From positions 1 to 63,106 of IMG/VR virus record IMGVR_UViG_3300021961_007069: a DNA stretch of 63,106 nt; one strand, given 5' to 3'. The translations under genes were made by a program, and so were the position numbers. Below the pieces are notes generated by a model, which saw nothing but the letters and a program-made list of their open reading frames with translations, searched no databases and was not told where the DNA came from. This DNA comes from a virus. Below, piece by piece: positions 8,002 to 57,085 of this stretch (position 1 is its first letter; each line of letters starts with the position of its first letter).

Positions 8002-8011
8002 GGAGACAAGT

Positions 8012-8236: not shown

Positions 8237-8259
8237 TTTTTAAACAAGGAGTATATTAA

Positions 8260-23036: not shown

Positions 23037-23038
23037 GG

Positions 23039-23339: not shown

Positions 23340-23372
23340 GGCGGCGGTGTAAAAACCGTCCGCCTTTTTCTT
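23340..23372 (+). terminator. Rho-independent terminator after tmRNA
   Basis: GGCGGCGGT (23340-23348) pairs with ACCGTCCGCC (23355-23364) with one bulge and is followed by TTTTTCTT. Confidence 0.85.
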
Positions 23373-23398
23373 CCAACTGCATAAATGGAGGTAACAAC

Positions 23399-39306: not shown

Positions 39307-39316
39307 GAGCTATCAA

Positions 39317-39814: not shown

Positions 39815-39832
39815 TCTGAAGTAGCCTACAAT
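39804..39832 (+). promoter_or_regulatory. Sigma70-type promoter
   Basis: TTGACT (39804-39809), 17-base spacer, TACAAT (39827-39832), serving the basic protein gene at 39897. It overlaps the end of the peptidase gene. Confidence 0.65.
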
Positions 39833-39896
39833 ATGCCCTACTTGATAAGTGTGATGTCAAGTATTTGTTAAGTTAGTTAAATATGGAGTTATTGAA

Positions 39897-40175
39897 ATGA
39901 ATACTACTAAGACACGCGTTGTTGAAGTTCTCGAGAAGAACCGTAATGGTTTGACCCTCGCTCAGCTTCAGAAGAAGGTTGGTTCCGGTGCTGCTGCTCG
40001 CGTTAGCGAAGCTCGCTTTGCTGGTTTCCCAATCTACTCAAACCGTAAGACGTTTGCCAATGGCCGTACGTCGACCGTTTACCGTCTCGGTAAGCCTTCT
40101 AAGCGCTTCACGCGTAACATGAAGGCCGGTCGCACTCAGATCGCCGTTCGCTCGCTCTACACCCGCGCTGCCTAA
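39897..40175 (+). CDS. Basic winged-helix/HTH protein (92 aa)
   Basis: TRVVEVLEKNRNGLTLAQLQKKVGSGAAARVSEARFAG has an HTH pattern, followed by a beta wing (IYSNRKTFANGRTSTVYRLG) and a basic tail (KRFTRNMKAGRTQIAVRSLYTR). It has its own promoter and terminator, so it is probably strongly expressed alone. A DNA-binding regulator or architectural protein is likely. Codons are strikingly C/G-ending. Confidence 0.78.
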   Translation: MNTTKTRVVEVLEKNRNGLTLAQLQKKVGSGAAARVSEARFAGFPIYSNRKTFANGRTSTVYRLGKPSKRFTRNMKAGRTQIAVRSLYTRAA

Positions 40176-40198
40176 TTCCCCTTAGGCACTAGAGTATG

Positions 40199-40233
40199 GA
40201 AGGGGGCTGGGTTCTCTGGCCCCCTTTCTTTTT
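40199..40233 (+). terminator. Rho-independent terminator
   Basis: AAGGGGGC pairs with GCCCCCTT around a short loop and is followed by TCTTTTT. It ends immediately before the ATG of the deaminase gene. Confidence 0.85.
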
Positions 40234-40719
40234 ATGACAACAATCGATCTACCATTCAATTATCCTTATGGTGAACCTGATCCACAAATTAAGTGGCATA
40301 CAAGGTTCATCGGTTTAGCTGTTCATGTTGCTCAGTGGTCAAAAGACCCATCAACTAAGGTTGGTGCTGTCATTGTCGACAGTGAGCGAAGAGTTGTCTC
40401 TCTTGGTTATAATGGTTTACCAAGAGGTGTATGTGACCACGACCACATACTAAATAATAAAGAACTCAAACTTCAGGTCGTTAAGCATGCCGAAGAAAAT
40501 GCTATCCTCAATTCTCTTTTACGGCCATCTGGCTGTACAATCTATGTTACTCACCACCCTTGCGCTTCTTGCGCTGGTAGTATCATTCAGTCTGGCATTG
40601 TTCGCGTTGTGTTTCCTTCTGTTCCTCTGGATAATACATTCTCTAAGAGATGGGAAGAGTCGATTAGACTTGCACAAACAATGTTCAAAGAAGCCGGCGT
40701 AGAGGTGTTAGAAGCATGA
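40234..40719 (+). CDS. Deoxycytidylate (dCMP) deaminase (161 aa)
   Basis: Zinc site VKHAEENAIL (H-x-E) and HPCASCAGSII (PCxxC) with the N-terminal SKDPSTKVGAVIV. It makes dUMP for thymidylate synthesis alongside phage RNR. The ATG follows directly on a terminator tail, so there is no visible SD; translation may rely on leader read-through. Confidence 0.9.
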   Translation: MTTIDLPFNYPYGEPDPQIKWHTRFIGLAVHVAQWSKDPSTKVGAVIVDSERRVVSLGYNGLPRGVCDHDHILNNKELKLQVVKHAEENAILNSLLRPSGCTIYVTHHPCASCAGSIIQSGIVRVVFPSVPLDNTFSKRWEESIRLAQTMFKEAGVEVLEA

Positions 40720-40952
40720 TTGATCTGGATCAAAGAGTCACCGTTAATAACTTTCAGACAGCAATTGAAAGTTGTGTTCATAAGAAAGGTATGGGCTACC
40801 TAGAGGCAATCATGTGGTATTGTGAACAACACAATGTTGAGATTGAAGCTGTTGCCTCTCTAATCAAAAAGTCGGAAGCTATCCGAACAAAGCTTGAAGC
40901 TGAGTGCGAAGACCAAAACATGATCCAGAGGCAACCAAAGCTACCCCTATGA
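40716..40952 (+). CDS. 33: gp33-like late transcription co-activator (78 aa)
   Basis: Acidic helical protein (TVNNFQTAIESCVHKKGMGYLEAIMWYCEQHNVEIEAVASLIKKS) that matches the short gp33 forms of marine T4-like phages. gp33 bridges the RNA polymerase beta flap and the sliding clamp to activate TATAAATA promoters, several of which lie in this window. ATGA overlaps on both sides. Confidence 0.75.
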   Translation: MIDLDQRVTVNNFQTAIESCVHKKGMGYLEAIMWYCEQHNVEIEAVASLIKKSEAIRTKLEAECEDQNMIQRQPKLPL

Positions 40953-41497
40953 AAATTACCTGCACAAATAAATTGAACCCTAAGTTGCGTAAGCATGTTG
41001 TTGCTTTAACGCGTTTTACTGTTGACCAGATCTTCACTAAAAGACAAAGAGATAAACTTGAGTCAATTAGTATTAGAATTGATAAGTCACTAAGCAATGG
41101 CACCGTCCACGATGTCGATGCTGTTCCATTAGCCTATATGGATGCCCACGTTGAGGACTATAACGAAAGGCAAGGTCCAAGAAACTTTATTATTTGGATT
41201 AATCCATTCTTTGCCAAGAAGAATATTACTAGATTTACAAGAGCCACATTCTTAGAAACAATTGTACATGAAACTGTACATATTAGACAGGCTCTCACTG
41301 GCCAGATGAAGCAAGTGTTTCGAAACGGCGATATAATGATTAAGTTCCATAAGAAGTACTACAAGATTGATTCAGTTGAAAAGTATTGGTTGTTTCCATG
41401 GGAAGTCGAGGCCCGTGGTTATGAAAAAGGCGTTCTTAACCTCTACTGCATTAAGAATCAATGTTACAATGAGTTTCCTGATCATCCCCTGAAGTAA
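40949..41497 (+). CDS. SprT-like zinc metallopeptidase 2 (182 aa)
   Basis: ATG 40949 overlaps the gp33 stop. HExxH motif in ETIVHETVHIRQAL and third-ligand region FPWEVEARGYEKG. Clearly related to the peptidase at 39317 but with a different N-terminus. Target unknown. Confidence 0.8.
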   Translation: MKITCTNKLNPKLRKHVVALTRFTVDQIFTKRQRDKLESISIRIDKSLSNGTVHDVDAVPLAYMDAHVEDYNERQGPRNFIIWINPFFAKKNITRFTRATFLETIVHETVHIRQALTGQMKQVFRNGDIMIKFHKKYYKIDSVEKYWLFPWEVEARGYEKGVLNLYCIKNQCYNEFPDHPLK

Positions 41498-42486
41498 TGT
41501 ACACTCTTGGTATTAACCTATCACATCATTCATCGATAGCGCTTCTTAGAAATAATGAAGTCCTTTTGTTTATACACGAAGAAAGATTGAATAGGGACAA
41601 GTACCACAGAGGTATACCATACAAGTCTCTCGACCTAATTAAAAACTACACAAATAATATTGATTGTGTAGTTCAAGTTAGTGGTTCCTCTGAGAACCCC
41701 AAAGCAATAATTAAACATCTGGCTAATCAAGGTGTTGGCATAACTACTTTCAGAAATGATAGTAGTCTTCACCATATGTCACATGCAGCCGCTGGTTTCT
41801 TCATGTCGCATTTTGACACTGCTACTGTCGTCGTTATCGATGGAGCAGGAGCACTATATAGACTTGGTGAATCCAATGTAAGAGCTTCTGAGACAACATC
41901 TCTATATAGAGCAACATTCCCTAAAATTGTTTGTACTGATAAACATTTCGTCATCGGCCTATATGACAGAAAACCTTTTGTCTACAATCAAAGCGATAAA
42001 CAAAAATTTAGAGATAAATTCAATGACATAAGATTGAGTATCTCAGAAGGTCTGGATATAGGTTGGAAGTATGCTGATGTCACGTCCCGGATTGGATTTG
42101 GTACATTTGGCGAAGGTAAGACAATGGGGCTCTCGGCATATGGTTCTACATCTACAGCAAGTGTCAAAGCCCACAAAATTCAAAAAGAATTAGAAGCCAC
42201 ATTCGTTAAGATAGTTGAGAAATTAGACACTAGCAATCTTGTGTTGAGTGGTGGATGTGCTCTAAACATTCTTGGCAATTCGATAATCAAGAAGACATAT
42301 CCAAATCTCAATGTATTTGTTGACCCCATAGCAGCAGATGGTACAGTTGCTCTAGGAGCAGCTGCATACCATTACTATAGTGTGACAAAGGATATAAATA
42401 AATTGGTATTTGGTTCATACCAAGGTCCAGTCTACCAGCTTGAGAAAAATTACATTTATGAATGTGCAAGAAAATATTCTCTATAG
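41497..42486 (+). CDS. Carbamoyltransferase N-domain 1 (NodU/TobZ Kae1-like part, 329 aa)
   Basis: The Kae1-like domain is complete: LGINLSHHSSIALL, HEERLNRDKYHRG, SLHHMSHAAAGFFMS (metal His pair), VVVIDGAG, GKTMGLSAYG and LSGGCALNILGN. The YrdC-like C-domain is absent and is encoded by the next ORF in another frame, which overlaps by 29 bases. Together they would move a carbamoyl group to a hydroxyl of a sugar-like acceptor. Confidence 0.85.
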   Translation: MYTLGINLSHHSSIALLRNNEVLLFIHEERLNRDKYHRGIPYKSLDLIKNYTNNIDCVVQVSGSSENPKAIIKHLANQGVGITTFRNDSSLHHMSHAAAGFFMSHFDTATVVVIDGAGALYRLGESNVRASETTSLYRATFPKIVCTDKHFVIGLYDRKPFVYNQSDKQKFRDKFNDIRLSISEGLDIGWKYADVTSRIGFGTFGEGKTMGLSAYGSTSTASVKAHKIQKELEATFVKIVEKLDTSNLVLSGGCALNILGNSIIKKTYPNLNVFVDPIAADGTVALGAAAYHYYSVTKDINKLVFGSYQGPVYQLEKNYIYECARKYSL

Positions 42487-43015
42487 TGATGTAGCTAAAC
42501 TACTGGCTGATGAAAATATCGTAGCCATCTTCCAGGGCCGATCAGAGAGTGGCCCAAGAGCACTTGGCAATAGATCTATGCTCTATACTCCTACCGACCC
42601 TAATGGCAGGGACCATGTTAATAAAATTAAAGGTAGAGAGTACTTTAGACCACTAGCTGCATCAATGATGCTAGAGCATGCAAATGATTGGTTTGATATG
42701 CTTGGCATTCCAGAATCGCCTTATATGACTTTCTCTTTCACATGTAAAGAAGATAAGAAGCATGTCATTCCATCTGTAATCCATGTAGATGGTTCTTGTA
42801 GAATTCAGACTGTAACTGAGCAGCAGAACTTTCACTACTATAACTTAATCAAAGCATTCTATGAGCTAACTGGTGTCCCAATGGTTCTCAATACTTCATT
42901 GAACCTTGCAGGCGAGCCACTAGTAGAAACTATCGACGACACATTCAATACATTTGCTAAGTCTAAGATTGACTATCTCTACTTACCCGAGTTGCAGTTG
43001 CTTGTTTCCAAATGA
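42458..43015 (+). CDS. Carbamoyltransferase C-domain (YrdC-like part, 185 aa)
   Basis: ATG 42458 gives a protein that starts where the canonical linker should be: VAIFQGRSESGPRALGNRSML, KGREYFRPLAASMM and TGVPMVLNTSLNLAGEPLVET are the family C-domain motifs. The split from the upstream N-domain could be a real two-subunit design or a frameshift product. It overlaps the next N-domain gene by ATGA. Confidence 0.85.
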   Translation: MNVQENILYSDVAKLLADENIVAIFQGRSESGPRALGNRSMLYTPTDPNGRDHVNKIKGREYFRPLAASMMLEHANDWFDMLGIPESPYMTFSFTCKEDKKHVIPSVIHVDGSCRIQTVTEQQNFHYYNLIKAFYELTGVPMVLNTSLNLAGEPLVETIDDTFNTFAKSKIDYLYLPELQLLVSK

Positions 43016-44187
43016 GCTACTACACACTAGCAATATCTTCATCTAATCACGATTCATCTATCTGTCTACTTAAAGACAGTGAGATAGTTGTTGCTTTTTC
43101 TTGTGAAAGAACTAATAGAATGAAGCACACTCAAAGAGTGGAGCAATCTGATATTGATGTAATTGCAAAATACACTAGGAATGTTGATAAGTTGGTTCTT
43201 ATCAATGTCCATGCAAAGTATGAAAAGTATCCAATGTTCAATGCCTTTGATGTATCAGAGACAGTGGAGGGCTTACTAAGGAAAGTAAGGAACGCTGGAA
43301 TACAATGCAAAAGGACAGTTGTTGATAACGCCCAACATCACCTCTACCATGCTGCCGCTGGTTATTATACTTCTGGCCTCGATGATGCAATCTGTATTAT
43401 TATTGATGGCTTTGGTTCAACAGAGCAGCATGAGGATGTTTCATTTGCAGAAACAACTTCCATCTTCTATGCCAAAGATACTTTCGAGACCCTCCATAAG
43501 CAAATCTTATATAAATTTGAATCACCAAAAAAGACAGGATGGGACAATCAAAAACTATCCGATAAGAAGAAGTCTTTTAGGTTTCCTGTTACAATTACTA
43601 CACATTTTGACATTGGCAAGATGTATGGCACAGTAACCAGACATATTGGATTCTATACTGTCGATGCTGGTAAGACGATGGGCTTGTCGGCTTATGGAAA
43701 ACCAAACAACTTGCCATCCATGCTCGTGGATGGTACAATTATATCCAATAGCAATTTGTTTAGATATGATAGCCATATAGATGTTCAGTTATATCCTGAA
43801 CTAGATAATCCAGATGACCAGACCAAGAAGAACATGGCCTACAATGTTCAGAAGGCTCTTGAAAAAATATTTGTAGAAAGAGTTGCATCTGCATTGAAAA
43901 TTAAGTATAGTAATAATGTAATACTTGGTGGTGGTTGTGCTCTTAACATCTTAGGTAACTCTGAAGTCAAGAAGCACTTTCCAAACATCAATGTGTATCC
44001 TGAACCAATTGCAGCTGATGCTGCTCAATCAATTGGTGCTGCGTTATATCATTACAAGTTGGAATTTCCTGATACTAAGTTCAAGAAAGTACACAATGTA
44101 TACTTTGGACCTGATTACGAACTTTCAACAGTTAAGCAAAGACTTATCCAACTAGTGGAGCAATACAATAATGGGTCTACTCTATAG
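43012..44187 (+). CDS. Carbamoyltransferase N-domain 2 (391 aa), no C-domain
   Basis: A second Kae1-like domain: LAISSSNHDSSICLL, CERTNRMKHTQR, HHLYHAAAGYYTSG, IIIDGFG, GKTMGLSAYGKP and GGGCALNILGN. No YrdC-like domain follows, so it may share the C-domain encoded upstream. It is about 60 residues longer than N-domain 1 because of insertions around residue 150-190. Confidence 0.82.
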   Translation: MSYYTLAISSSNHDSSICLLKDSEIVVAFSCERTNRMKHTQRVEQSDIDVIAKYTRNVDKLVLINVHAKYEKYPMFNAFDVSETVEGLLRKVRNAGIQCKRTVVDNAQHHLYHAAAGYYTSGLDDAICIIIDGFGSTEQHEDVSFAETTSIFYAKDTFETLHKQILYKFESPKKTGWDNQKLSDKKKSFRFPVTITTHFDIGKMYGTVTRHIGFYTVDAGKTMGLSAYGKPNNLPSMLVDGTIISNSNLFRYDSHIDVQLYPELDNPDDQTKKNMAYNVQKALEKIFVERVASALKIKYSNNVILGGGCALNILGNSEVKKHFPNINVYPEPIAADAAQSIGAALYHYKLEFPDTKFKKVHNVYFGPDYELSTVKQRLIQLVEQYNNGSTL

Positions 44188-44356
44188 ATCGTCTGCAATT
44201 GGTACTAAGGTTGCTGAGCTAGTTGTCAACAGCAATACAATCGTTTGCGTCCTAACCGATAAGACAGCTAAGACGGCTAAGACAATCATCTGTATGACCG
44301 TCCACCAAGCCGAGAAGTTGATCGAGCAATTCCTACACCCCAAAAAGCCCTACTAG
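44171..44356 (+). CDS. Small unknown protein (61 aa)
   Basis: Overlaps the N-domain 2 end by 17 bases. VAELVVNSNTIVCVLTDKTAKTAKTIICMTVHQAEKLIEQFL looks like a small alpha/beta protein. The stop lies at the first operator element of cluster 3. Confidence 0.6.
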   Translation: MGLLYRSSAIGTKVAELVVNSNTIVCVLTDKTAKTAKTIICMTVHQAEKLIEQFLHPKKPY

Positions 44357-44627
44357 AATCAATAGGTTACACCACCGCGTTTTCGGATGAAGAAAACACG
44401 TTTTCCTTTAGAATCAATAGGTTACACGTTTCGAGGTCGTCTAGAAGGTGTAGTTGTGTATGATTGGCGTGCTGCTAACTCAATTTTCGTATATACGCGT
44501 CAAAACGCGCTCTCAAATTCCCCAGTAAAATCAACAAGTTATAACTCGTTAAAAATCAAGAGGTTATCGTCAATTTTGTAACTCCTTGATTTTGCGTGTT
44601 GCTATGTTTGGCCAATGTGCGTATAGT
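44355..44627 (+). promoter_or_regulatory. Operator element cluster 3 (five copies) and early-type promoter
   Basis: Reverse-orientation copies at 44355-44370, 44410-44425, 44527-44542 and 44552-44567, then a forward copy at 44578-44593, 44 bases before the -10. The promoter is TTGCTA (44599-44604), 17 bases, TATAGT (44622-44627). This 300-base gap holds no gene I support: a 64-codon ORF (44387-44581) runs through repeats. Confidence 0.75.
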
Positions 44628-44633
44628 GCCCGC

Positions 44634-44660
44634 ATGTTTGAGATGAATGAGGTTTCCTGA
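44634..44660 (+). CDS. Possible leaderless 8-aa leader peptide (MFEMNEVS)
   Basis: The predicted transcription start coincides with ATG 44634. The frame ends TGA at 44658-44660, overlapping the ATG of the ATPase gene, so leader translation could couple to it. The ATPase also has its own GAGG SD. Confidence 0.35.
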   Translation: MFEMNEVS

Positions 44661-45532
44661 TGCCTAGAGGCGTCCCGAAGAAGGGCTTTCGAATGACTAA
44701 GAATCGTCGGAAGCAGAATGTAGTACATCAGCCTGCTCTTACTCTTACTAAGAGTACTGAGTCGGTTGAGCAGATTGCCGAGAAGCTCAATGATCGTTTT
44801 AACGCTCTTGAGGTTCTAACTGAGGCAACTGGTAAGGGCATCAACCGTGCTCTGATTGTATCTGGACCTGCTGGTCTTGGTAAGTCGTATACGGTTGAGC
44901 AGAAGATGGCTGAGCTTGAGAAGCAGGGTCACAACGTGACCACAATCAAGGGCTATGTCCGTCCGCTCTCACTCTATAGACTGCTCTACGAATCGCGGTT
45001 CCCGAACTGTGTGCTCGTGTTTGACGACTCTGATTCGATCTTCGCCGATGACATTTCGATGAACTTGTTGAAGAGTGCTTGCGACTCTACTGATACGCGT
45101 AAGCTTCACTGGTTGTCGAAATCTATCGATAAGGTTGAAGATGAGGATGGTGAACCAATTCCTAACAGTTTCGAGTTCGAAGGTTCTGTGATCTTTATCA
45201 CGAACTACGACTTTGATGACCTCATCGCTCGTGGCTCGCGACTTGCTCCTCACTTTGAGGCGCTTGTTTCTAGATCACACTACCTTGACCTTGCGATGAA
45301 GACGAAGATGGATTATGTCGTTCGTATCAAGCAGGTTGTTGCGCTCGGTATGCTCCGTGATAAGGGCTTGAGCGTTACTGATGAGTCTACGATTGTGGAC
45401 TTTGTTGAGAAGAACATGGATAATCTCCGTGAACTCTCTCTTCGAATGGTCATTAAGTTGGCCACGTTGATGAAGATGAATAGTAGTAACTGGCAAAAGT
45501 TAGCAAAACAGACTTGTTTTCGTAACTGTTGA
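44660..45532 (+). CDS. AAA+ ATPase (290 aa)
   Basis: Walker A VSGPAGLGKSYTVEQ (about residues 69-83), Walker B CVLVFDDSDSIF, sensor-1-like VIFITNYDFDDL and Arg-containing RGSRLAPHFEALVSR. Similar P-loop ATPases occur in T4-like phages, with unknown role. It is the single large product of operator cluster 3, so it may be an early takeover or remodelling factor. C/G-ending codons are common. Confidence 0.85.
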   Translation: MPRGVPKKGFRMTKNRRKQNVVHQPALTLTKSTESVEQIAEKLNDRFNALEVLTEATGKGINRALIVSGPAGLGKSYTVEQKMAELEKQGHNVTTIKGYVRPLSLYRLLYESRFPNCVLVFDDSDSIFADDISMNLLKSACDSTDTRKLHWLSKSIDKVEDEDGEPIPNSFEFEGSVIFITNYDFDDLIARGSRLAPHFEALVSRSHYLDLAMKTKMDYVVRIKQVVALGMLRDKGLSVTDESTIVDFVEKNMDNLRELSLRMVIKLATLMKMNSSNWQKLAKQTCFRNC

Positions 45533-45557
45533 CATATATACTACTCTAGTAGATAAT
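45529..45557 (+). promoter_or_regulatory. Strong promoter of the tRNA array
   Basis: Consensus TTGACA (45529-45534), 17-base spacer, GATAAT (45552-45557). It overlaps the ATPase stop codon and precedes a 340-base leader before the first tRNA. Confidence 0.8.
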
Positions 45558-45899
45558 ACTAGGCCCTGAATAAGACATTGCGCTCTTGTTCAGTTCTTTA
45601 AAAATACGAATTCCAATTAGGTGCTTCGCGACCTGTCGGCATTAGTTCATTCTTCAGACCGACTGGAGTGTTTCGACGCTCGGCTTCCGTTCAGGCAGGC
45701 TTAACAGCGACCTTATTAGTTGGGTGTCCCGCCACCCCCTCGTTGTAGGTAGGCCATATTGTACCGGCCCGAACCGTTTTGTTGTTGTAACGGTGAAAAG
45801 AGTGGACCTTATTGCAGACTGCTACCTGATCATCGTAGCAGCGTGGACTGTCACCACGGAGCATAGTGTGACGCCGGATTAGTAACCGGCACTTATTAT
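45558..45899 (+). other. Structured non-coding leader of the tRNA array
   Basis: No ORF is supported here. AGTTCTTTAAAA (45592-45603) matches the boxA antitermination motif TGCTCTTTAACA at 9 of 12 positions. Several hairpins are visible: AGGT/ACCT around 45618, ACCGTT/AACGGT near 45775, CTGCTAC/GTAGCAG near 45825 and CCGG/CCGG near 45880. It may be a processed leader or hold unknown small RNAs. Confidence 0.5.
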
Positions 45900-45975
45900 G
45901 GACCGTTAGCTCAGCTGGTAGAGCATTTGACTCTTAATCAACAGGTCGTAGGTTCGAACCCTACACGGTCCACCA
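45900..45975 (+). tRNA. tRNA-Lys (CTT)
   Basis: Cloverleaf with acceptor GGACCGT/ACGGTCC, anticodon loop CTCTTAA and encoded CCA. First tRNA of the array. Confidence 0.95.
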
Positions 45976-45981
45976 TTTTGT

Positions 45982-46055
45982 TTCCCGATAGTGTAATGGT
46001 AGCATACGAGTCTCCAAAACTCTTGGTTGCGGTTCGAGTCCGTATCGGGAAGCCA
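45982..46055 (+). tRNA. tRNA-Trp (CCA)
   Basis: Acceptor TTCCCGA/TCGGGAA, anticodon loop CTCCAAA, discriminator G, encoded CCA. Confidence 0.93.
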
Positions 46056-46064
46056 GTTAGTTTT

Positions 46065-46139
46065 TGGCGTGTAGATCAGCGGTAGATCAAGTGACTGTTA
46101 ATCACTCTGTCGTAGGTTCGATCCCTACCACGCCAGCCA
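46065..46139 (+). tRNA. tRNA-Asn (GTT)
   Basis: Acceptor TGGCGTG/CACGCCA, anticodon loop CTGTTAA, encoded CCA. Confidence 0.93.
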
Positions 46140-46302
46140 ACTTGGTGACCCACAGGAGCGCTCTGTCGGGTTCATCCTATCAGTGTAAGGGCTTATCCGT
46201 TTCGGTAGCACTGATCGAATTATGAGGCAGAACGGATTGCAGCCTTGTTGCGTGGGGATAAGGCATAAGCACAAACCTTCAATGGTAGCCCACGCCTTAT
46301 TT
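46140..46302 (+). other. Structured inter-tRNA segment with possible pseudoknot
   Basis: A hairpin built on GACCC-ACAG/CTGT-GGGTT (46147-46172) and one on ATCAGTG/CACTGAT (46179-46215). Then GTGGG (46252-46256) and ATAAGGC (46258-46264) pair with CCCAC (46289-46293) and GCCTTAT (46294-46300) in pseudoknot order. It ends directly before tRNA-Ala. No T-arm or gene is seen. Confidence 0.5.
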
Positions 46303-46377
46303 GGGGGATTAGTGCTAATGGGAACACGCTGCGTTTGCATCGCAGAGTTGAGAGTTCGATTCTCTCATCCTCCACCA
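46303..46377 (+). tRNA. tRNA-Ala (TGC)
   Basis: Acceptor GGGGGAT/ATCCTCC with the G3-U70 identity pair, anticodon loop TTTGCAT, encoded CCA. Confidence 0.94.
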
Positions 46378-46380
46378 AAT

Positions 46381-46488
46381 TTGTTATTCGTAAGCCATGG
46401 GCACGATCATGCCTGAGTAACTGCGCCAAAAGAAAACTTCAGTTCTAGAAACCTGAAGGTGAGACGCAGCAAATAGTGCGAATAACAA
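46381..46488 (+). ncRNA. Candidate structured RNA between tRNA-Ala and tRNA-Gln
   Basis: A perfect 10-bp closing stem TTGTTATTCG (46381-46390)/CGAATAACAA (46479-46488) encloses a GGCA/TGCC hairpin (46400-46413) and a CTGCG/CGCAG stem (46421-46469) capped by CTTCAG/CTGAAG (46437-46458). It does not fold as a tRNA. Confidence 0.55.
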
Positions 46489-49261: not shown

Positions 49262-49276
49262 CTTTGAGGATTGATT

Positions 49277-49858
49277 ATGGCATACCTACCAGAGTACTTG
49301 GAATTTGTTACCGATGCAATTAGGTTTGAATTCTTTCAACCTAATGGTCTTTCTATGTTTGAGCTTGGCAACCAAAGATTCATTGGTGGTGAGTTTACAA
49401 CTGGTAAGCAACATTTTGAACATTATGGTATGCTTCATACATCTGTTGATATCAATGGAGAGGATGGAGCATTGCCACTTGATCTAACAAAGCCAGAGCT
49501 TTTTTATGACTTTAGATGTAGGTATGATGTCCTAACAAACCTTGGCGTCACCGAGCATGTTGAGCCTATTGATAAACAGTATGAGTGTTTTTCTATCATC
49601 CACGATGTAGTGAGGCCAGGTGGCATTATGATCCACATGGTACCAGATGTAGAAGAACTAGAAAATTCAGGGGCATGGAAAGATCATTGTTCCATTTACT
49701 ATACAAAAGAGTTCTTTATAGAGTTGACAGAAGCCTGTAATTATACTATACTTGAGAATAAAGTAATCTTTGGATTGAGATCTGTTGTACTAAGGAAGGA
49801 AACAGCCAGAGCGTTTACAGCAAACGCTGAGATATTTTCTTTGATACAGCAGAGATAA
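49277..49858 (+). CDS. SAM-dependent methyltransferase-like protein (193 aa)
   Basis: SMFELGNQRFIGG is a degenerate motif I; YDVLTNLGVTEHVEPIDKQYECFSIIHDVVRPGGIMIHMVP (about residues 88-128) matches the motif IV-VI region of class I methyltransferases. ATG 49277 follows TGAGGA. Substrate unknown. Confidence 0.72.
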   Translation: MAYLPEYLEFVTDAIRFEFFQPNGLSMFELGNQRFIGGEFTTGKQHFEHYGMLHTSVDINGEDGALPLDLTKPELFYDFRCRYDVLTNLGVTEHVEPIDKQYECFSIIHDVVRPGGIMIHMVPDVEELENSGAWKDHCSIYYTKEFFIELTEACNYTILENKVIFGLRSVVLRKETARAFTANAEIFSLIQQR

Positions 49859-49866
49859 ATAATTTT

Positions 49867-50430
49867 ATGATTAAATTGGTCAATAATATTCCTAAAAAAA
49901 TTGTTGATGATGTTGAGTTATGGGTAACAAGTACAAAGATCCCATGGTTCTTCTTCACTCACACATTGGGTGAAGAACCAAGAGGTAGCCACCCTGTAGA
50001 TCAAGATACCTACACAATAGCTGATCTACCGCGCCTCACTCACTACTTCTTTCCAAATTCCAAAACGCCAGAGAACGATAAAAAGTACATTATGCCATTG
50101 ACTCAATGGTGTATAGCAAACATTCTGCCTTCAAACTATGAGGTAAGAAGAGTCATGGGTAACTTGACTACCCAGTTGAGAGATGCTGAATTGCTTCTTA
50201 ACATTCCTCATGTTGATTCGGACGATGGTGATAAGATTACATTCCTCTACTATGTTAATGATAGTGATGGTCAGACTGTATTCTTCAAAGATGGTAAGAT
50301 TGCATTTGAAACAACACCTGTCAGGGGTACTGGTGCCCTGTTCCGATCGAACACTGTCCACGCAGGACAGGTACCATGTATAAATAAAAGCAGGTATGTG
50401 ATTAATATTATATTTTCAAAGCGGGATTGA
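49867..50430 (+). CDS. 2OG-Fe(II) oxygenase (187 aa)
   Basis: NIPHVDSDDGD gives H-x-D, LYYVNDSDGQTVFF the core strand, and NTVHAGQVP plus SRYVINIIF the distal His and Arg. The whole facial triad and 2OG-binding Arg are present. Ends 10 bases inside tRNA-Gly (GCC). Substrate unknown; paralogue at 50507. Confidence 0.85.
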   Translation: MIKLVNNIPKKIVDDVELWVTSTKIPWFFFTHTLGEEPRGSHPVDQDTYTIADLPRLTHYFFPNSKTPENDKKYIMPLTQWCIANILPSNYEVRRVMGNLTTQLRDAELLLNIPHVDSDDGDKITFLYYVNDSDGQTVFFKDGKIAFETTPVRGTGALFRSNTVHAGQVPCINKSRYVINIIFSKRD

Positions 50431-50494
50431 TGTAATGGTAGCCTAGAACTTTGCCAAAGTTCACGCGCGAGTTCGATTCTCGCATCCCGCTCCA
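50421..50494 (+). tRNA. tRNA-Gly (GCC)
   Basis: Acceptor GCGGGAT/ATCCCGC, anticodon loop TTGCCAA, discriminator T, encoded CCA. The stop codon of the preceding gene lies in the acceptor arm. Confidence 0.93.
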
Positions 50495-50506
50495 TTTAGG
50501 TAATGT

Positions 50507-51127
50507 ATGGTTGACACTATTAGAATAGATCCTTCATTAGCTGACTCAGTGGAAAAAGAGTTGCTAAGCATCAAGCCAAACTGGCAATATGTTGGAATGA
50601 CAAATTATTTTTACGATGTGTCAGATTCTAATCAAAGGGCTCTTCTTGATAGTATTAATACAAAGTATGGTCCTGTTGTCGACACCCAAAGATTTACTGA
50701 TGAGTATATAAATAGGTTTGCGAAGCCTGATGTTAGATTCATTGACATTCGTGGCAATCCAAATACACGTTACAACAAACATTTTCCAAGTGTTGCCAAG
50801 CTTGTTGACTATATACAAACTACATATATTCCTAGAGAGTATGCTGTGTATAGATTGATGACGAACATTCAAACAATTAGACCTAAATGGACTATGAATG
50901 CTCCTCATCCGGATACAAGATTAGATAAGTTTATTACAGTTTTATACTATGTCAATGACAGTGATGGAGATACGTTTTTCTTTGATGGAGATCAGTGCAT
51001 AGGTAGAATGAGACCTATCAAGGGTACAGCTGCCATGTACCCATCCAACACATGGCATGCTGGCTCAACACCTATTGAACATGAGACAAGAGTAGTCATT
51101 AATATGGTGTTTGGTCCAAACAAATAA
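50507..51127 (+). CDS. 2OG-Fe(II) oxygenase (206 aa)
   Basis: NAPHPDTRLDKFITVLYYVNDSDGDTFFF (H-x-D, residues about 134-162) and SNTWHAGSTP with RVVINMVF supply the triad and Arg. Related to 49867 but with a longer N-terminal domain. Start follows AGGTA near the tRNA-Gly end. Confidence 0.85.
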   Translation: MVDTIRIDPSLADSVEKELLSIKPNWQYVGMTNYFYDVSDSNQRALLDSINTKYGPVVDTQRFTDEYINRFAKPDVRFIDIRGNPNTRYNKHFPSVAKLVDYIQTTYIPREYAVYRLMTNIQTIRPKWTMNAPHPDTRLDKFITVLYYVNDSDGDTFFFDGDQCIGRMRPIKGTAAMYPSNTWHAGSTPIEHETRVVINMVFGPNK

Positions 51128-51128
51128 A

Positions 51129-51218
51129 GGAAGTGTGGCAGAGCGGTTGATCGCACTAGTCTTGAAAACTAGCAGACCTTAACGGGTCACGTAGGTTCGA
51201 ATCCTACCACTTCCGCCA
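51129..51218 (+). tRNA. tRNA-Ser (TGA)
   Basis: Class II; acceptor GGAAGTG/CACTTCC, anticodon loop CTTGAAA, encoded CCA. It begins 1 base after the oxygenase stop. Confidence 0.94.
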
Positions 51219-51237
51219 AATTATATAAGGAGATGAT

Positions 51238-53295
51238 ATGAAAAAGTTATTATTAATGTTTTTAGTATTTGCGCAAGTTGCTTCTGCAGCTGAACTACAG
51301 GAAGTGGTTGTCACTGCCCAGCGTAAGGTTCAGAACATTCAAGACGTTCCAATGTCAATCTCAGTTTTGACATCTGCAGATCTAGAAGCAAGACAAGTAT
51401 CTGTTGTTGAGAATGTATTATTCAATGCTCCAAACGTTATTGGTAACAATAACTTAGGAACACAGGCAGCACTAAATCTTTTTATTCGTGGTGTTGGCAC
51501 GACAGAAAATCTAGCAACAGCTGATCCAGCAATTGGTATGTACGTTGATGATGTATACGTGGGCAGACAAGCCCTGAATAATATTGCACTATTTGACGTC
51601 GAGAGTGTAGAAGTTCTTAGAGGACCACAGGGCGTTCTTTATGGACGCAACACTAATGGTGGTGCAATCAAGGTAACATCAGTCAAGCCAAATGCAGATT
51701 ATTATGGCCAGTATGATTTTTCATATGGTTCATTCAACTATCTCGATGCCAAGCTAATTGGCAATGCCCCAATCACCGACAACCTTTTTGCAAGAGCAAG
51801 TTTTGTTTGGGCACAAGATGATGGTTATATGACTGCTATCAACAAGAGTGTTAACAATCAAGATGTTGTTGGTGGCAAGTTTGCTTTAAGATATTTAAAA
51901 GAAAACGTTGATGTAACATTATCAACAGACTATATCGATAGTCAAACAAATGGTAATTTTGTAGTTGATGTTGGTGGCATTTTACAATCTGGTTCAAGAA
52001 ATTTATTTGTCAGTCAATCCAATAAAGATGCTCTAAATTTAAGTGAATCAATTGGTACAGTATTAAATGCTAAGTATACCGTTGGCAACTTTGAACTCCT
52101 ATCAATCACTGGGTATAGAGAAACAAATCAGTATCTCACCTTTGACGCTTCAGGCCAGCCAGTTTCATTGTATAACATATACCAGAACCAAGCAGCTGAC
52201 CAGCTCTCACAGGAACTGCAGGTTGTAGGTAATGTTGGTCCAGTCACCTTTGTTTCAGGATTATATTTTTTCAGTGAAAAGACGGATGCTTATGTAACAG
52301 ATGAACTCCGCCAACCAAACTCACTGTTTAATGTTGCTACATTCATTACAAAATACTTTGATGTCGAAGTGAATAATTATGCTGCCTATGGGCAGGCTGA
52401 GTATAGTTGGAATGATCTTACATTGGCAGCTGGTGGAAGATATACTAAAGAAGATAAGGAACTTAACCTAGCTCAATCTAGTACAATTCCAGGTCCATTA
52501 TATAACTATACAAGAGCATCTAAGAGAGAATTCAATAAGTTCACACCAAAGGTATCTGCTAGCTATAATCTCAATGGTGCATTATTGTACGCTTCATATG
52601 CAGAAGGGTTTAGATCAGGTGGCTGGACAGGTCGTGCCTTTAGAGGCGATCAGTATGTCAACTTTGAACCTGAGAATGTAGAAACTGTTGAGGTTGGTGT
52701 TAAAGCTGAAGGCTCAAGCTGGCGTATCAATGCTGCTGCATTCCATACCGACTACACGAACCTATTCAACACACTGACATTGAATGGTGCATTTACTGTA
52801 CAGACAGCTGATGCCACTATCAAGGGATTGGAAGTTGAAGGTCAAGTTGTAGCCAATAGTTGGCTAACAGCCTATGGTAGTGTTGGTTTACTAGATGGTG
52901 AGTATAAGCAGCCTCAACCACGCAATCTAGCTAGTAGCCTTCAGCGCTCTCCAAAGTACCAGACAACACTTGGTGCAACAGCTACATTCCCAGCCAAAGC
53001 TGGTAAGGTAGTTCTAAATGCTAATGTCTATTATGTTGACAAGTATCTACTAACACCAGCTAATCTTGCATTCACTGCACCTTTGTTAGCTGGTAAAGGT
53101 TTAGATGTTTCTGGTGGTTATGCTCTGATTAATTTGTCGGCGACATATAGTATAAGCAGCGTGGATGTGTCGCTGCAATGTACTAACTGTCTTGATAAGG
53201 AGTATACAGAAGGATCGATATATATTGGTCAGTATGCTGGCGCTTGGCCTGGTATGCCAAGAGTTGTCAAGTTGAACATCAGCGAGAAGTTCTGA
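51238..53295 (+). CDS. TonB-dependent outer-membrane receptor (685 aa)
   Basis: A signal peptide (MKKLLLMFLVFAQVASA) is followed by a TonB box (LQEVVVTAQR), a plug domain with VPMSISVLTSADLE, IRGVGTTEN and VEVLRGPQGVLYGRNTNGGAI, and a beta barrel with alternating strands (YASYAEGFRSGGW, NVETVEVGVKAEG). It ends in Phe (NISEKF), the usual BAM-recognition end. The frame is intact and in phage-like codon usage with a GGAG SD. It should take up a siderophore, vitamin or carbohydrate, or act as receptor decoy. Confidence 0.93.
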   Translation: MKKLLLMFLVFAQVASAAELQEVVVTAQRKVQNIQDVPMSISVLTSADLEARQVSVVENVLFNAPNVIGNNNLGTQAALNLFIRGVGTTENLATADPAIGMYVDDVYVGRQALNNIALFDVESVEVLRGPQGVLYGRNTNGGAIKVTSVKPNADYYGQYDFSYGSFNYLDAKLIGNAPITDNLFARASFVWAQDDGYMTAINKSVNNQDVVGGKFALRYLKENVDVTLSTDYIDSQTNGNFVVDVGGILQSGSRNLFVSQSNKDALNLSESIGTVLNAKYTVGNFELLSITGYRETNQYLTFDASGQPVSLYNIYQNQAADQLSQELQVVGNVGPVTFVSGLYFFSEKTDAYVTDELRQPNSLFNVATFITKYFDVEVNNYAAYGQAEYSWNDLTLAAGGRYTKEDKELNLAQSSTIPGPLYNYTRASKREFNKFTPKVSASYNLNGALLYASYAEGFRSGGWTGRAFRGDQYVNFEPENVETVEVGVKAEGSSWRINAAAFHTDYTNLFNTLTLNGAFTVQTADATIKGLEVEGQVVANSWLTAYGSVGLLDGEYKQPQPRNLASSLQRSPKYQTTLGATATFPAKAGKVVLNANVYYVDKYLLTPANLAFTAPLLAGKGLDVSGGYALINLSATYSISSVDVSLQCTNCLDKEYTEGSIYIGQYAGAWPGMPRVVKLNISEKF

Positions 53296-53297
53296 AC

Positions 53298-53337
53298 ATA
53301 AGCCCCTGTTGACATCCAGGGGCTTATCCTATACAAT
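53298..53337 (+). promoter_or_regulatory. Hairpin with embedded sigma70 promoter
   Basis: ATAAGCCCCTG (53298-53308) pairs with CAGGGGCTTAT (53317-53327). TTGACA (53309-53314) fills the loop and TACAAT (53332-53337) follows with a 17-base spacer. The hairpin may stop receptor transcripts, though no U-run follows, while the promoter starts the next unit with tRNA-Leu. Confidence 0.65.
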
Positions 53338-53347
53338 ACACAGTATT

Positions 53348-53431
53348 GCCCGGGTGGCGGAATTGGTAGACGCAACGGTCTTAGAAGCCGTCGCCGAAAG
53401 CGTGGAGGTTCGAGTCCTCTCCCGGGCACCA
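53348..53431 (+). tRNA. tRNA-Leu (TAG)
   Basis: Class II; acceptor GCCCGGG/CCCGGGC, anticodon loop CTTAGAA, encoded CCA. Last tRNA in the window. Confidence 0.95.
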
Positions 53432-53448
53432 TATTATAAGAGAGTGAC

Positions 53449-54078
53449 ATGAAGCATAAGTTATCTTTACTATTGGTTTTTGCTCTTGTTGGTCAAGCAT
53501 TTGGTCAGCAGAATGAGCTTGCAGAGCCAAGAGGCATGCAAGATATTATGGCTGAGATTGTCACCGGTAAGTATAGAATGAAGCAAGGTAGTGCTGCACC
53601 TTGGACAAATGAAGTTGTAGCAACCAGCGCTCATATCAATGCCTTAATCGAAGGCGAACTCTGCGAATCAAAAGAGTTTGATGTTAAGTTTGTTAAGCAA
53701 GAAACCCAATATGCAAAGTGGCGCGACCCAGTCGCATTTGAAGAGTTGACCTATAAGGGCAAGATCGAAGCAACATCAGAAGACCGTAAGATGACTATGG
53801 TGATTGAGAGTAACTCAGTTGGCCTAGCATTACGTAGAACTGTTATCTACTGGAACGGTGAGAAGGTTGATTGGGTTTGGCTTGGAACAGGGATTGTTGT
53901 CAAGGGGATGAGCGGTGGTCCAGTTATTGCTAGGTCTGATGGCGCTGTTGTTGGCATTGTTATGGGTCGTCCTGCCAAGGGATTGAAGAAGTACGCATTT
54001 GAAGAAGAGAAGTATGGTGACCTGACAATCTTTGTTCCATACAGCGTAGTTGACTTCGTTTGGAGAAATTGCAAGTGA
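53449..54078 (+). CDS. Secreted trypsin-like serine protease (209 aa)
   Basis: Signal peptide (MKHKLSLLLVFALVGQAFG). Catalytic triad candidates are H62 (ATSAHINAL), D79 (EFDVKFVK) and S155 in GMSGGPVI, followed by AVVGIVMG, the usual S1/Trypsin_2 C-terminal pattern. It probably acts in the periplasm and sits next to the TonB-dependent receptor, but a functional link is not shown. Confidence 0.82.
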   Translation: MKHKLSLLLVFALVGQAFGQQNELAEPRGMQDIMAEIVTGKYRMKQGSAAPWTNEVVATSAHINALIEGELCESKEFDVKFVKQETQYAKWRDPVAFEELTYKGKIEATSEDRKMTMVIESNSVGLALRRTVIYWNGEKVDWVWLGTGIVVKGMSGGPVIARSDGAVVGIVMGRPAKGLKKYAFEEEKYGDLTIFVPYSVVDFVWRNCK

Positions 54079-54182
54079 AGAAGCAGAAGCTTACTTGGGC
54101 AAACCTCAAGAAGGATAAAATGTTCCACATTGAGGCTGGCATCGTTGTTCTTGTATTCATTGCATATTGGTTCTTTGCATGA
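54075..54182 (+). CDS. Tiny single-TM protein, GTG start (35 aa)
   Basis: GTG overlaps the protease stop. Basic N-terminus (KKQKLTWANLKKDK) and one membrane helix (AGIVVLVFIAYWFF). ATGA overlap with the next gene supports translation. Confidence 0.6.
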   Translation: MKKQKLTWANLKKDKMFHIEAGIVVLVFIAYWFFA

Positions 54183-54406
54183 AGACCTATATCCATGTTA
54201 ACCAGCATGTGATACGTTCAAACAAAAAGAACGGAAATAATGATCCAGTAATTACAGTTAAGAGAGGATCTAAGAATACTTACTGTCGGAAGGTGAAGAT
54301 TCTTGGTCCAAGTGAAGTAGTCTATTCAGGCAACGACAAACCACTACTATCTTGTGGTGCCAGAGTTGCTGTAGTTACAGAATCAGAAGTCGAGATAGTA
54401 GAATGA
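54179..54406 (+). CDS. Small basic unknown protein (75 aa)
   Basis: ATG 54179 overlaps the preceding stop. Basic beta-type protein (YIHVNQHVIRSNKKNGNN, PVITVKRGSKNTYCRKVKI). Coupled to the P-loop gene by ATGA. No family recognised. Confidence 0.7.
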   Translation: MKTYIHVNQHVIRSNKKNGNNDPVITVKRGSKNTYCRKVKILGPSEVVYSGNDKPLLSCGARVAVVTESEVEIVE

Positions 54407-54930
54407 AAGTTATTAATTTGTTCGGTGGGCCAGGCGTTGGCAAGTCTACAATTGCAGCCGACCTCTTTGCTATGATGAAGCGTGAAGGCCACAATGTAGA
54501 ACTAGTGAATGAGTATGCTAAAGAAGTTACCTGGGAGGGGCACTTTAGTTATTTAGATGATGAGTTCTATGTCCTGGCCCACCAGAACAGACGTTTGGTT
54601 AGATTGAAAGGTAAGGTCGATTACGTTATTACAGATTCACCAATCCTTTTAGGTCTAGCATATACACCTCCTACTTACTACCCTGAATATTTTAGTAAGT
54701 TTATCCATGAGGTTTGGAATTCGTATACCAATATAAATATCGTTCTTGAGAGAGAACAAAGTAACTATATTGAGGCTGGAAGGAATCAGAAGTATGAAGA
54801 GGCGCTCATCAAGGATAAGATGATGATCGATCTTCTAGAAGGTAACAACGACAAATATTTTAAGACTGTTGTTGATAGGACAACAAAATACGAAATTCTG
54901 GAGTACGTAAAACATGGCGACAAAAAATGA
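54403..54930 (+). CDS. AAA_28-type P-loop protein (175 aa)
   Basis: Walker A FGGPGVGKSTIAADL (about residues 7-21), NEYAKEVTWEG and YVITDSPILLGLAY fit the NadR/Ttd14-like P-loop group, which includes nucleotide and nicotinamide-riboside kinases. It may act with the NMNAT-like domain at 20202, but this is speculative. Confidence 0.78.
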   Translation: MKVINLFGGPGVGKSTIAADLFAMMKREGHNVELVNEYAKEVTWEGHFSYLDDEFYVLAHQNRRLVRLKGKVDYVITDSPILLGLAYTPPTYYPEYFSKFIHEVWNSYTNINIVLEREQSNYIEAGRNQKYEEALIKDKMMIDLLEGNNDKYFKTVVDRTTKYEILEYVKHGDKK

Positions 54931-55069
54931 TGTAACTGGTGATACTATTCAGACAAAGTTAGCATCTGACGCTTATAGACAGAACTGGGAAAAGATCTTC
55001 GGTAAGAAGGATAAAAAGAAGAAAGATGGACAACGAAGAAGTTCTAGAAAAGTTCAACCAACTAGTTGA
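54914..55069 (+). CDS. Small basic conserved phage protein (51 aa)
   Basis: MATKNDVTGDTIQTKLASDAYRQNWEKIFGKK resembles small hypothetical proteins of marine T4-like phages. It overlaps both neighbours (17 and 44 bases), the second by an unusual length. Confidence 0.65.
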   Translation: MATKNDVTGDTIQTKLASDAYRQNWEKIFGKKDKKKKDGQRRSSRKVQPTS

Positions 55070-55193
55070 ACAATACGGGGACCAACTACCAAACCATATT
55101 CATGAACCAAGACGGTTTTCTTATTATGTCCGTATGACCGCTTGGACGAAAGAACTAGAAAAGTTAGCTGTTGATTCTAAACCTAAGGGCTAG
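55026..55193 (+). CDS. Small helical unknown protein (55 aa)
   Basis: ATG 55026 follows AAGAAAG. Acidic/amphipathic protein (EVLEKFNQLVEQYGDQLPNHIHEPRRFSYYVRM). Frame differs from the preceding ORF, with which it overlaps 44 bases. Confidence 0.62.
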   Translation: MDNEEVLEKFNQLVEQYGDQLPNHIHEPRRFSYYVRMTAWTKELEKLAVDSKPKG

Positions 55194-55231
55194 TATAATA
55201 AATATTACATACTGACCATTAGGAGTTTGTC

Positions 55232-55801
55232 GTGTCTCTTGTATTGATTGCTGATAGTGCTGGTACCCCAAAAGATTGGGTTAACTTCGAAACTGCTGTT
55301 TGCTATTACGCTAAAGATAAAGTTATCTGGGAAGCAGGTTCTCCTATAAGAGAATTCCTGGGTGGCCATAACTATCTTGGCGAGCAATCGAAGATTACTA
55401 TCTCTTCAATCCTTGGAGTCTCTGGTCCAATCCTTGGTTCTCATTTTTATGATAGAGAGTCAATTTATGCTGATCGTTATGTTTTATACTCACGCGATCG
55501 CCACCTTTGTGCTTACTGCGGCAATCAGTTTCAGCCTAAAGAATTAACTATTGACCATGTCCACCCTCGATCAAGAGGTGGTAAGAATCTTTGGACAAAT
55601 GTTGTAGCAGCATGTAAGCCATGCAACCATAGAAAGGGTAATAAGACTCCAGAAGAGGCTAAGATGCATCTTCTCTATGTTCCATACGTTCCTAATATAT
55701 TCGAAAAGATGATCTTGCGGAATAAAAAGATCTTGGCTGACCAGATGGAATTCCTAATTGGTAGAATTCCAAAGCACAGTAGAATCTTTCCTATCCAATG
55801 A
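55232..55801 (+). CDS. HNH endonuclease (189 aa)
   Basis: GTG start with AGGAG upstream. HNH core: CAYCGNQFQPKELTIDHVHPRSRGG (CxxC then DH, residues about 89-113) and ACKPCNHRKGN (second CxxC and His). The N-terminal 85 residues are unrelated to known domains I recognise. Could be a homing or restriction-type nuclease. Confidence 0.88.
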   Translation: MSLVLIADSAGTPKDWVNFETAVCYYAKDKVIWEAGSPIREFLGGHNYLGEQSKITISSILGVSGPILGSHFYDRESIYADRYVLYSRDRHLCAYCGNQFQPKELTIDHVHPRSRGGKNLWTNVVAACKPCNHRKGNKTPEEAKMHLLYVPYVPNIFEKMILRNKKILADQMEFLIGRIPKHSRIFPIQ

Positions 55802-56361
55802 GGCTGCCAGGCTTACTCTATAAGATTGGAAAGGTTGATACCTCAAAGATTGAAGAGTGCGTAAATGCTCTAACCAGCGAGCAATGGATGGAATGGGACC
55901 TGAGGCAGAATAGATATAAAGTCCATGCTGCCACAGAGTCCTACCCATTCATGTTCTCTGAGTATGGTGAGAAGCCAAAGCTGTACAACCAAGATACAGA
56001 TATCTGGAAGGCAATCAGACCACTGGTCAATAATCTCGAAAGCTTTTATAATACAAAAGCTGCTGCTATTGTTCTTGTTAAACTGAAGCCGAAAACAAAT
56101 ATCATTCCCCACACTGATGGTGGATGGTTTATTGATACGCATAGAATACACATTCCAATTATAACAGATTCGAAGATAGTATTTGTTCTTGATAGTGAAA
56201 AATTCCATCTAGAGGCTGGCAATGTTTATGAGATTAATAATGTTGTGGAACATAGCGTTATCAATCCAACTGATATTGGTCGAGTTCATTTGATGGTTGA
56301 TCTAATGCCTAACCCAATATCAACTATTGACTATAAAAATTTATTAGCAAATGAATTCTAA
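55798..56361 (+). CDS. Aspartyl/asparaginyl beta-hydroxylase-like oxygenase (187 aa)
   Basis: IIPHTDGGW supplies the first metal His with the AspH-type HxxxxW arrangement, THRIHIPI the second strand, LEAGNVYEINNVVEHSVIN the distal His and RVHLMVDL the Arg. AspH enzymes need only His ligands. Targets can be proteins or nonribosomal products. It overlaps the methyltransferase gene by 11 bases. Confidence 0.8.
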   Translation: MRLPGLLYKIGKVDTSKIEECVNALTSEQWMEWDLRQNRYKVHAATESYPFMFSEYGEKPKLYNQDTDIWKAIRPLVNNLESFYNTKAAAIVLVKLKPKTNIIPHTDGGWFIDTHRIHIPIITDSKIVFVLDSEKFHLEAGNVYEINNVVEHSVINPTDIGRVHLMVDLMPNPISTIDYKNLLANEF

Positions 56362-57085
56362 GTATCATATCAACAATCAAGACCATAGAATTTTCACAGG
56401 TAGTGATTGTCCTGAGGTATGGGATACGATTGGCAGGCTACAGTTTGATCTATGCATCGAGCATGGCCTTCATCATCACATGAAATTCATTGATATTGGT
56501 TGTGGATCACTGAGGGGTGGTGTTCATTTCATTAGGCATATTGGTGCTAATTATTTTGGTATTGATAAGCATAGAGAAATGATTGATGCAGGGTTAGATA
56601 TTGAACTCCCTGCTGTTGGATTACACTCATCCTATGATAACTTTGATGTCAATAGTAATTTTGATATTAGCAAGTTCAATGTTAAGTTTGATATGGGCAT
56701 TGCTCAATCAGTCTTTACCCACCTACCTCTATACAAACTTATTGAGTGTCTTGATCAAATCCACCCACACTTTAACATCGGTGGTAAATTTATTGTTACT
56801 TTGTATGTGAATAATAGTAAACAACAAACGATGGAGTATGACATCAACTATAGACTTAAACCTGTATTCGAAGGGAATCCTATTGATGTCGATAAACATT
56901 CTATTCGTCCAGTCAATAATGATGATCCAGAAAATGATAGTGGAATGAAGTCCTTCATTTTCCAACGACATACTGTACAATCAATTACACCTCATATCCA
57001 GGATAAGTGGCAGATGAAAGCGCTTGGTGGGTGGAAAGCACACCCTAGATGGCCCACTTTATACGTGTTTAAAAAAGTCCTTTAG
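56351..57085 (+). CDS. SAM-dependent methyltransferase (244 aa)
   Basis: Motif I KFIDIGCGSLRGGVHFIRHIG, post-I NYFGIDKH and AQSVFTHLP define a class I fold. C-terminal region (PHIQDKWQMKALGGWKAHPRWPTLYVF) resembles methyltransferases linked to glycosylation clusters. Its stop is 2 bases before operator cluster 4. Confidence 0.8.
   Translation: MNSKYHINNQDHRIFTGSDCPEVWDTIGRLQFDLCIEHGLHHHMKFIDIGCGSLRGGVHFIRHIGANYFGIDKHREMIDAGLDIELPAVGLHSSYDNFDVNSNFDISKFNVKFDMGIAQSVFTHLPLYKLIECLDQIHPHFNIGGKFIVTLYVNNSKQQTMEYDINYRLKPVFEGNPIDVDKHSIRPVNNDDPENDSGMKSFIFQRHTVQSITPHIQDKWQMKALGGWKAHPRWPTLYVFKKVL

Follow-up and report, generated by a model that had tools for sequence, protein, structure and literature searches.

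Phage metabolic genes mostly encode soluble enzymes or parts of the inner membrane or periplasm. TonB-dependent receptors (TBDRs) on phages are already known: the marine megaphage Mar_Mega_1 carries a SusC-type receptor that its authors read as serving nutrient uptake during infection (PMC9723777), and a TBDR has been claimed among the virion genes of Polarivirus skadi, where it was read as pointing to TonB as the adsorption receptor (PMC10504331). Phages also make proteins that act on the receptors of their hosts, as with T5 Llp and T1/phi80 Cor, small periplasmic lipoproteins that jam a host TonB-dependent transporter (TBDT; PMC9586334). TBDTs for aromatic compounds have been demonstrated experimentally, as with DdvT of Sphingobium sp. 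SYK-6 (PMC6874591, PMC8599685), and overexpressing a single TBDT or Ton complex raises the uptake or conversion of aromatics (PMC8599685).

Here we describe a TBDR gene, P0001, in a 63,106-nucleotide stretch of viral DNA (the window; IMG/VR record IMGVR_UViG_3300021961_007069). Like the Mar_Mega_1 SusC protein, P0001 is a full phage-borne TBDR; it differs in being a non-SusC TBDR of a T4-like phage, for which an orthologue group, an empty site and a second phage copy could be shown. The SusC/RagA class was rejected for P0001: TIGR04056 is absent from its NCBIfam matches, and there is no SusD among the neighbouring genes scanned. A structure search of BFVD returned one full TBDR match, A0A8D9FQQ5, labelled 'TonB-dependent receptor SusC [uncultured marine phage]', which may be the Mar_Mega_1 protein; its likeness to P0001 is a structure match only, with 11% identity and a TM score of 0.71 by query. 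Polarivirus skadi and the window phage can be likened by description, both having a TBDR annotation. Llp, Cor and P0001 are all phage-made envelope proteins concerned with TBDTs, but P0001 is a TBDT proper and the other two are not; an exclusion lipoprotein of their type was rejected here, since P0001 is a 685-aa barrel with no Cys at the cleavage site. With DdvT, P0001 shares a plug-barrel build, an N-terminal TonB box and, putatively, a catabolic substrate, a likeness of class. The bacterial orthologues of P0001 have a DdvT-like setting, with catabolic genes and IclR regulators adjoining, whereas the phage gene is set in a tRNA array and lacks catabolic neighbours.

The receptor gene and its phage setting

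The features of the locus are as follows (window coordinates):

23012-23382: tmRNA (ARAGORN call), tag ANDDYYEMALAA
45900-49261, + strand: main phage tRNA array, with 22 of the 25 tRNAs and some protein genes among them
50507-51127, + strand: 2OG-Fe(II) oxygenase-like gene, 5' of tRNA-Ser; 87% identity to the copy in a second phage, L066
51129-51218, + strand: phage tRNA-Ser(tga), left flank of the TBDR gene, beginning 2 bp past the oxygenase stop
51227-51232, + strand: Shine-Dalgarno sequence AAGGAG, 5 nt ahead of the P0001 ATG, read from the sequence
51238-53295, + strand: TBDR gene P0001, 685 aa (ORF, Pfam, AlphaFold2, fold search)
51292-51318, + strand: TonB box region ELQEVVVTA, at the expected mature N-terminus; aligns with the boxes of the orthologues
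53298-53327, + strand: hairpin of 11 bp, ATAAGCCCCTG/CAGGGGCTTAT, 3' of the TBDR stop, read from the sequence
53309-53337, + strand: promoter-like site TTGACA-17-TACAAT ahead of tRNA-Leu, a consensus match only
53348-53431, + strand: phage tRNA-Leu(tag), right flank of the TBDR gene
53449-54078, + strand: P0002, a putative secreted or periplasmic trypsin-like protein (signal peptide by eye, SAH and GMSGGP motifs)

P0001 runs from ATG to TGA as a single unbroken 685-aa reading frame with 0 frameshifts. Its parts are a putative signal peptide (residues ~1-18), the TonB box (~19-27), a plug (34-143), a predicted 22-strand barrel (~151-685) and a C-terminal Phe. Pfam matches cover both domains: PF07715 (Plug) at residues 34-143 (4e-20; 72.7 bits against a cut-off of 23.9) and PF00593 (TonB_dep_Rec_b-barrel) at residues 226-650 (1.8e-33, above its cut-off). 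The signal peptide, MKKLLLMFLVFAQVASA, was judged by eye from its KK, LLLMFLVFA and ASA elements. An AlphaFold2 model built on a 15-sequence alignment (pLDDT 78.6, pTM 0.81) shows a plug followed by ~22 barrel strands, and by plug, 22-stranded barrel and TonB box P0001 classifies, as far as sequence and model tell, as a TBDT. The earlier note on this DNA had described a full receptor with a signal peptide, a Shine-Dalgarno sequence and neighbour-like codon usage, and had proposed structure prediction; the description holds, for the signal peptide by eye, and the model bears out the fold.

In a PDB fold search the model came closest to FyuA, the yersiniabactin receptor (PDB 4epa; TM 0.82 by query, profile E 6e-46), followed by FhuA and FoxA; FyuA is 20% identical to P0001 over the fold alignment and is a bacterial gene product with a siderophore ligand. 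This ranking could point to iron piracy, that is, import of a ferric siderophore, for example for ribonucleotide reductase or the 2OG oxygenases, and the phage does encode nrdAB and several 2OG-Fe(II) oxygenases. Most solved TBDRs are siderophore receptors, however, which biases the ranking. TIGR01783 (siderophore receptor) is the best NCBIfam match of P0001 by E-value, but at 161.4 bits it falls below the cut-off of 223.5, and assignment to that family was rejected. Since the bacterial orthologues also lie in catabolic and not siderophore clusters (below), we regard siderophore import as improbable; the siderophore route suggested by the earlier note is not supported.

The surroundings are those of a phage. 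The window holds 25 tRNAs and one tmRNA, and its other phage genes include a primase, nrdA, nrdB and an endolysin. The codon usage of P0001 follows that of 13 other window genes (RSCU r = 0.90) and not that of two bacterial orthologue sets (0.13 and -0.11), and its GC3 is 0.29 against 0.75-0.92 in the bacterial orthologues. The hairpin behind the TBDR stop has no U tract, and its loop contains the TTGACA of the next promoter-like site. The Trypsin_2 match of P0002 is weak and below the cut-off, and a PDB search with this protein gave no significant match. Around the TBDR gene, at 49271-57085, 2OG-Fe(II) oxygenases, an Asp/Asn hydroxylase-like gene and methyltransferases are clustered, which suggests small-molecule or protein modification by the phage. 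Two neighbouring ORFs (41497-42486 and 43012-44187) both match a Nol-like carbamoyltransferase family (phrog_1601).

A separately assembled sister contig, G001 (IMGVR_UViG_3300021962_007022), is 100% identical to the window from 41238 to 63106 and continues for ~43 kb with T4-type baseplate wedge, hub/tail-lysozyme, tail tube and tail-fibre genes, so the genome exceeds ~105 kb or the contigs are circularly permuted. A 7,086-bp match (39306-46391) contains 47 mismatches, none of them right of 41238, and there is no match left of 39306; the divergence is thus confined to 39306-41238 and is of strain level. As G001 may derive from the window's own sample or a nearby one, it confirms the assembly rather than representing an independent virus. 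The window virus is a T4-like myovirus, and the TBDR gene belongs to its genome. The earlier note had named an assembly chimera of host and phage DNA as the outcome that would overturn its reading. Apart from the L066 copy (50%), the nearest matches of P0001 are indeed bacterial genes, but a chimera is almost inconceivable given the identical junctions in G001, the matching gene order in L066 from a different metagenome, the phage tRNA genes abutting the locus on either side, an empty site in a relative, G1350, and the phage-like GC3 and codon usage of the gene.

Bacterial origin and the locus in related phages

As sampling narrowed step by step from gammaproteobacteria to one order, one family and one genus, the best identity to P0001 climbed from 34% to 47-48%, and the best bacterial orthologue group, of a Pseudomonadales-type family represented by 217 species, is 45-48% identical. 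In trees of 46 and 53 sequences, the window and L066 proteins form one clade (SH-aLRT 100) beside eight bacterial orthologues (100); the comparison with host receptors that the earlier note had proposed thus places the phage copies within one bacterial orthologue group. By these sequence comparisons the donor was a Pseudomonadales-type gammaproteobacterium, probably of the family Halieaceae. A closer donor may exist, each class having been only partly sampled.

The bacterial orthologues lie by genes for an acyl-CoA ligase, a 3-ketosteroid-dehydrogenase-like FAD protein and an FAD_binding_4 oxidase; an amidohydrolase-2, two IclR regulators, an MFS permease and an alpha/beta hydrolase adjoining the TBDR also recur. 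This neighbourhood has the look of a gene cluster for breaking down an organic acid, probably a cyclic one, and the clusters point to organic-acid, aromatic or alicyclic catabolism. P0001 keeps 204 of the 298 host-invariant residues, including 6 of 7 at the TonB box and, in loops assigned from the AlphaFold2 model, 11 of 11 in L7 (SGGWTGR), 8 of 9 in L9 and 7 of 8 in L10. Near residue 428 ('NYTRAS--KREF') the phage barrel has one segment that falls short of its bacterial counterparts in length, and at 46% identity to the orthologues ligand specificity may have shifted.

L066 (IMGVR_UViG_3300042389_000401), from a different metagenome, carries a TBDR at the corresponding place, in the order tRNA-Gly, 2OG oxygenase (87%), tRNA-Ser, TBDR (50%), protease-like gene (71%), kinase-like gene (83%) and HNH gene (92%). 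Both TBDR copies are intact, the TonB-box segment (residues 19-30) is 83% identical between them, and their dN/dS is 0.2, with dS near saturation. By contrast, the close relative G1350 (IMGVR_UViG_3300021962_000061; 91% at the ATPase gene, 93% at the HNH gene) has an empty site, tRNA-Ser, 43 bp and tRNA-Leu, with neither a TBDR nor a P0002-type gene. No Plug domain was found anywhere in the records of the 188-kb and 197-kb relatives. This absence from the nearest relatives makes the TBDR an accessory, dispensable gene, one gained or lost cleanly at a tRNA-tRNA junction and kept in two diverged phages. Scanning with the TBDR and P0002 pairs brought up no additional viral copies.

The P0002-type gene (counterpart in L066 at 7818-8444) tracks the presence and absence of the TBDR in the three phages compared: this trypsin-like gene was found only in the two phage lineages with this TBDR and is absent from the empty-site relative. 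P0002 may act together with the TBDR. In L066, the TBDR stop is directly followed, at 7703-7780, by the 3' part of a tRNA-Ser(tga)-like sequence that differs from the intact upstream tRNA-Ser; this part is likely a recombination scar.

These features bear on whether the TBDR is a mere passenger: host DNA that a tRNA cluster prone to recombination captured by accident and that serves no selected function. Its accessory distribution, its position in the tRNA array and the truncated tRNA-Ser-like piece would all suit a passenger. Nevertheless, the gene is intact in two phages despite 50% identity and its codon usage is fully phage-like, and TBDRs of other phages are under strong purifying selection and were independently acquired more than once (below), which leaves chance carriage with little probability. 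In that it is host-derived and stably kept, the TBDR is an auxiliary metabolic gene, given its host orthologues, the two phages with the locus and its phage codon usage.

TBDRs in other phages

IMG/VR contains ~20 contigs with a TBDR of this superfamily; L075, L077 and L082, which may be prophage or host DNA, were left out of the count. The earlier note's impression that few phage genomes carry a full receptor is fair for isolates, but there are these contigs and the published precedents. By sequence relationships, phage TBDRs arose at least 3-4 separate times. A second lineage comprises 13 viral tree rows, among them a 333-kb contig, and is kin to alphaproteobacterial genes (56-59% identity); the idea that this clade is virus-specific was dropped because genes of that identity occur in two alphaproteobacteria. 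This lineage includes L104, L107 and L136, T4-like phages related to the window phage, in which the TBDR, of other origin than P0001, lies at a different locus, near a RuvC-like ORF. Comparison with the window phage makes this a convergent acquisition of TBDRs within one phage group.

A third lineage is found in L078 (7998-10268) and L080 (7926-10196), beside phage nrdA/nrdB; its nearest tree neighbour is the TBDR of a SAR86 genome, and L078 and L080 are possible SAR86 phages. The fourth, jumbo-type lineage is represented by L083 (3226-10061; IMGVR_UViG_3300005537_000001, a 368-kb contig) and L084 (3558-10136), where the TBDR gene lies directly behind NMNAT-Nudix, NAMPT, PnuC and NadR-like genes (PnuC, PF04973, 4e-48 and 3e-47). 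This cluster is a possible phage-encoded import-to-NAD route that includes the outer membrane. In three other phage pairs, TBDR dN/dS was 0.11, 0.07 and 0.085, indicating purifying selection. The best full-length matches in INPHARED, from Acinetobacter 'phage' MD-2021a, look like mislabelled host contigs, and their TBDRs are unreliable: in record CAKLQH020000024.1 (L143), exbD, oppA, uvrA and acrB surround the match. In a search of papers in open-access journals, we found no literature on recurrent, multi-origin phage TBDRs or on a TBDR-PnuC NAD-salvage cluster.

Proposed import during infection and its alternatives

On balance we favour the view that P0001 is a functional transporter importing a host catabolic substrate during infection, a reading that draws on sequence comparison and the structure model. 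An ancestor of the phage would have acquired the gene from a gammaproteobacterium, with insertion at a spot between two phage tRNA genes. The TBDR would be transcribed together with the tRNAs, with read-through from the 2OG-oxygenase gene probable since only 2 bp separate its stop from tRNA-Ser; by eye, L066 shows a sigma-70-like site ahead of tRNA-Ser. Sec would then export P0001, BAM would fold it into the outer membrane, and the host TonB-ExbB-ExbD complex would power it. A weak single query detected no ExbB/ExbD in the phage, which argues for dependence on the host Ton complex. The ligand would share the substrate class of the orthologues, with a cyclic/aromatic or fatty-acid-like organic compound as the likeliest candidate; its import could sustain or broaden the supply of carbon and energy during virus production. 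By the time the protein is exported and assembled, the dying cell may be past benefiting from it. The uptake or conversion of aromatics rises when one TBDT or the Ton complex is overexpressed (PMC8599685), so one extra transporter can matter.

Alternatively, the phage TBDR may serve superinfection exclusion by flooding the outer membrane, competing for TonB or BAM, or occupying the tails of rival phages. TBDRs are frequent phage receptors, a conserved TonB box would also suit competition for TonB, and P0002, a secreted protease-like partner, shares the distribution of the TBDR. T5-type phages do block a TBDR, FhuA, through the lipoprotein Llp (PMC9586334). However, known exclusion proteins are small receptor-jamming lipoproteins and not whole receptors, and an extra host-like receptor could equally add adsorption sites. 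The predicted loops retain their host-invariant ligand residues and are not diversified: window/L066 identity is 0.54 in loops versus 0.46 in strands, a trend only and not significant by circular shifts (0.12 and 0.22). Loops no more variable than strands are unlike what diversifying evasion would be expected to produce. The blocking role raised by the earlier note thus finds no positive evidence in the locus, and we consider it unlikely, though less so than siderophore import or chance carriage.

Nutrient uptake fits best of the three functions that the earlier note had proposed for its receptor, which proved to be a full one on a genuine phage. The conserved TonB box, plug and ligand-loop residues and the catabolic clusters of the orthologues point to uptake, and purifying selection on TBDRs elsewhere and the PnuC neighbours agree with it. 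The NAD-salvage setting in L083 and L084 offers an instance where gene context speaks for import by a phage TBDR; jumbo-phage queries for NAD-salvage genes found none in the window phage beyond a 35-residue chance-level match.

The unrelated TBDR copies in other large phages suggest, from their sequences, that phages repeatedly equip infected cells with uptake channels of their own. The wider proposition is about evenly balanced: that large phages infecting aquatic Gram-negative bacteria have, repeatedly and independently of one another, supplied the cells they infect with TBDTs for different ligands, catabolic substrates here and NAD precursors in jumbo phages. If true, outer-membrane import would be a recurrent part of phage metabolic takeover, and the jumbo-phage PnuC, NAMPT, NMNAT and NadR-like proteins together with the TBDR would form a phage-encoded route from the cell exterior to NAD. 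Because the phage here encodes a receptor of a class that phages commonly use, uptake and superinfection effects would be separable by direct test. A host-powered outer-membrane transporter, selected and repeatedly acquired, would give phages control over the intake of a dying cell and not only over its output.
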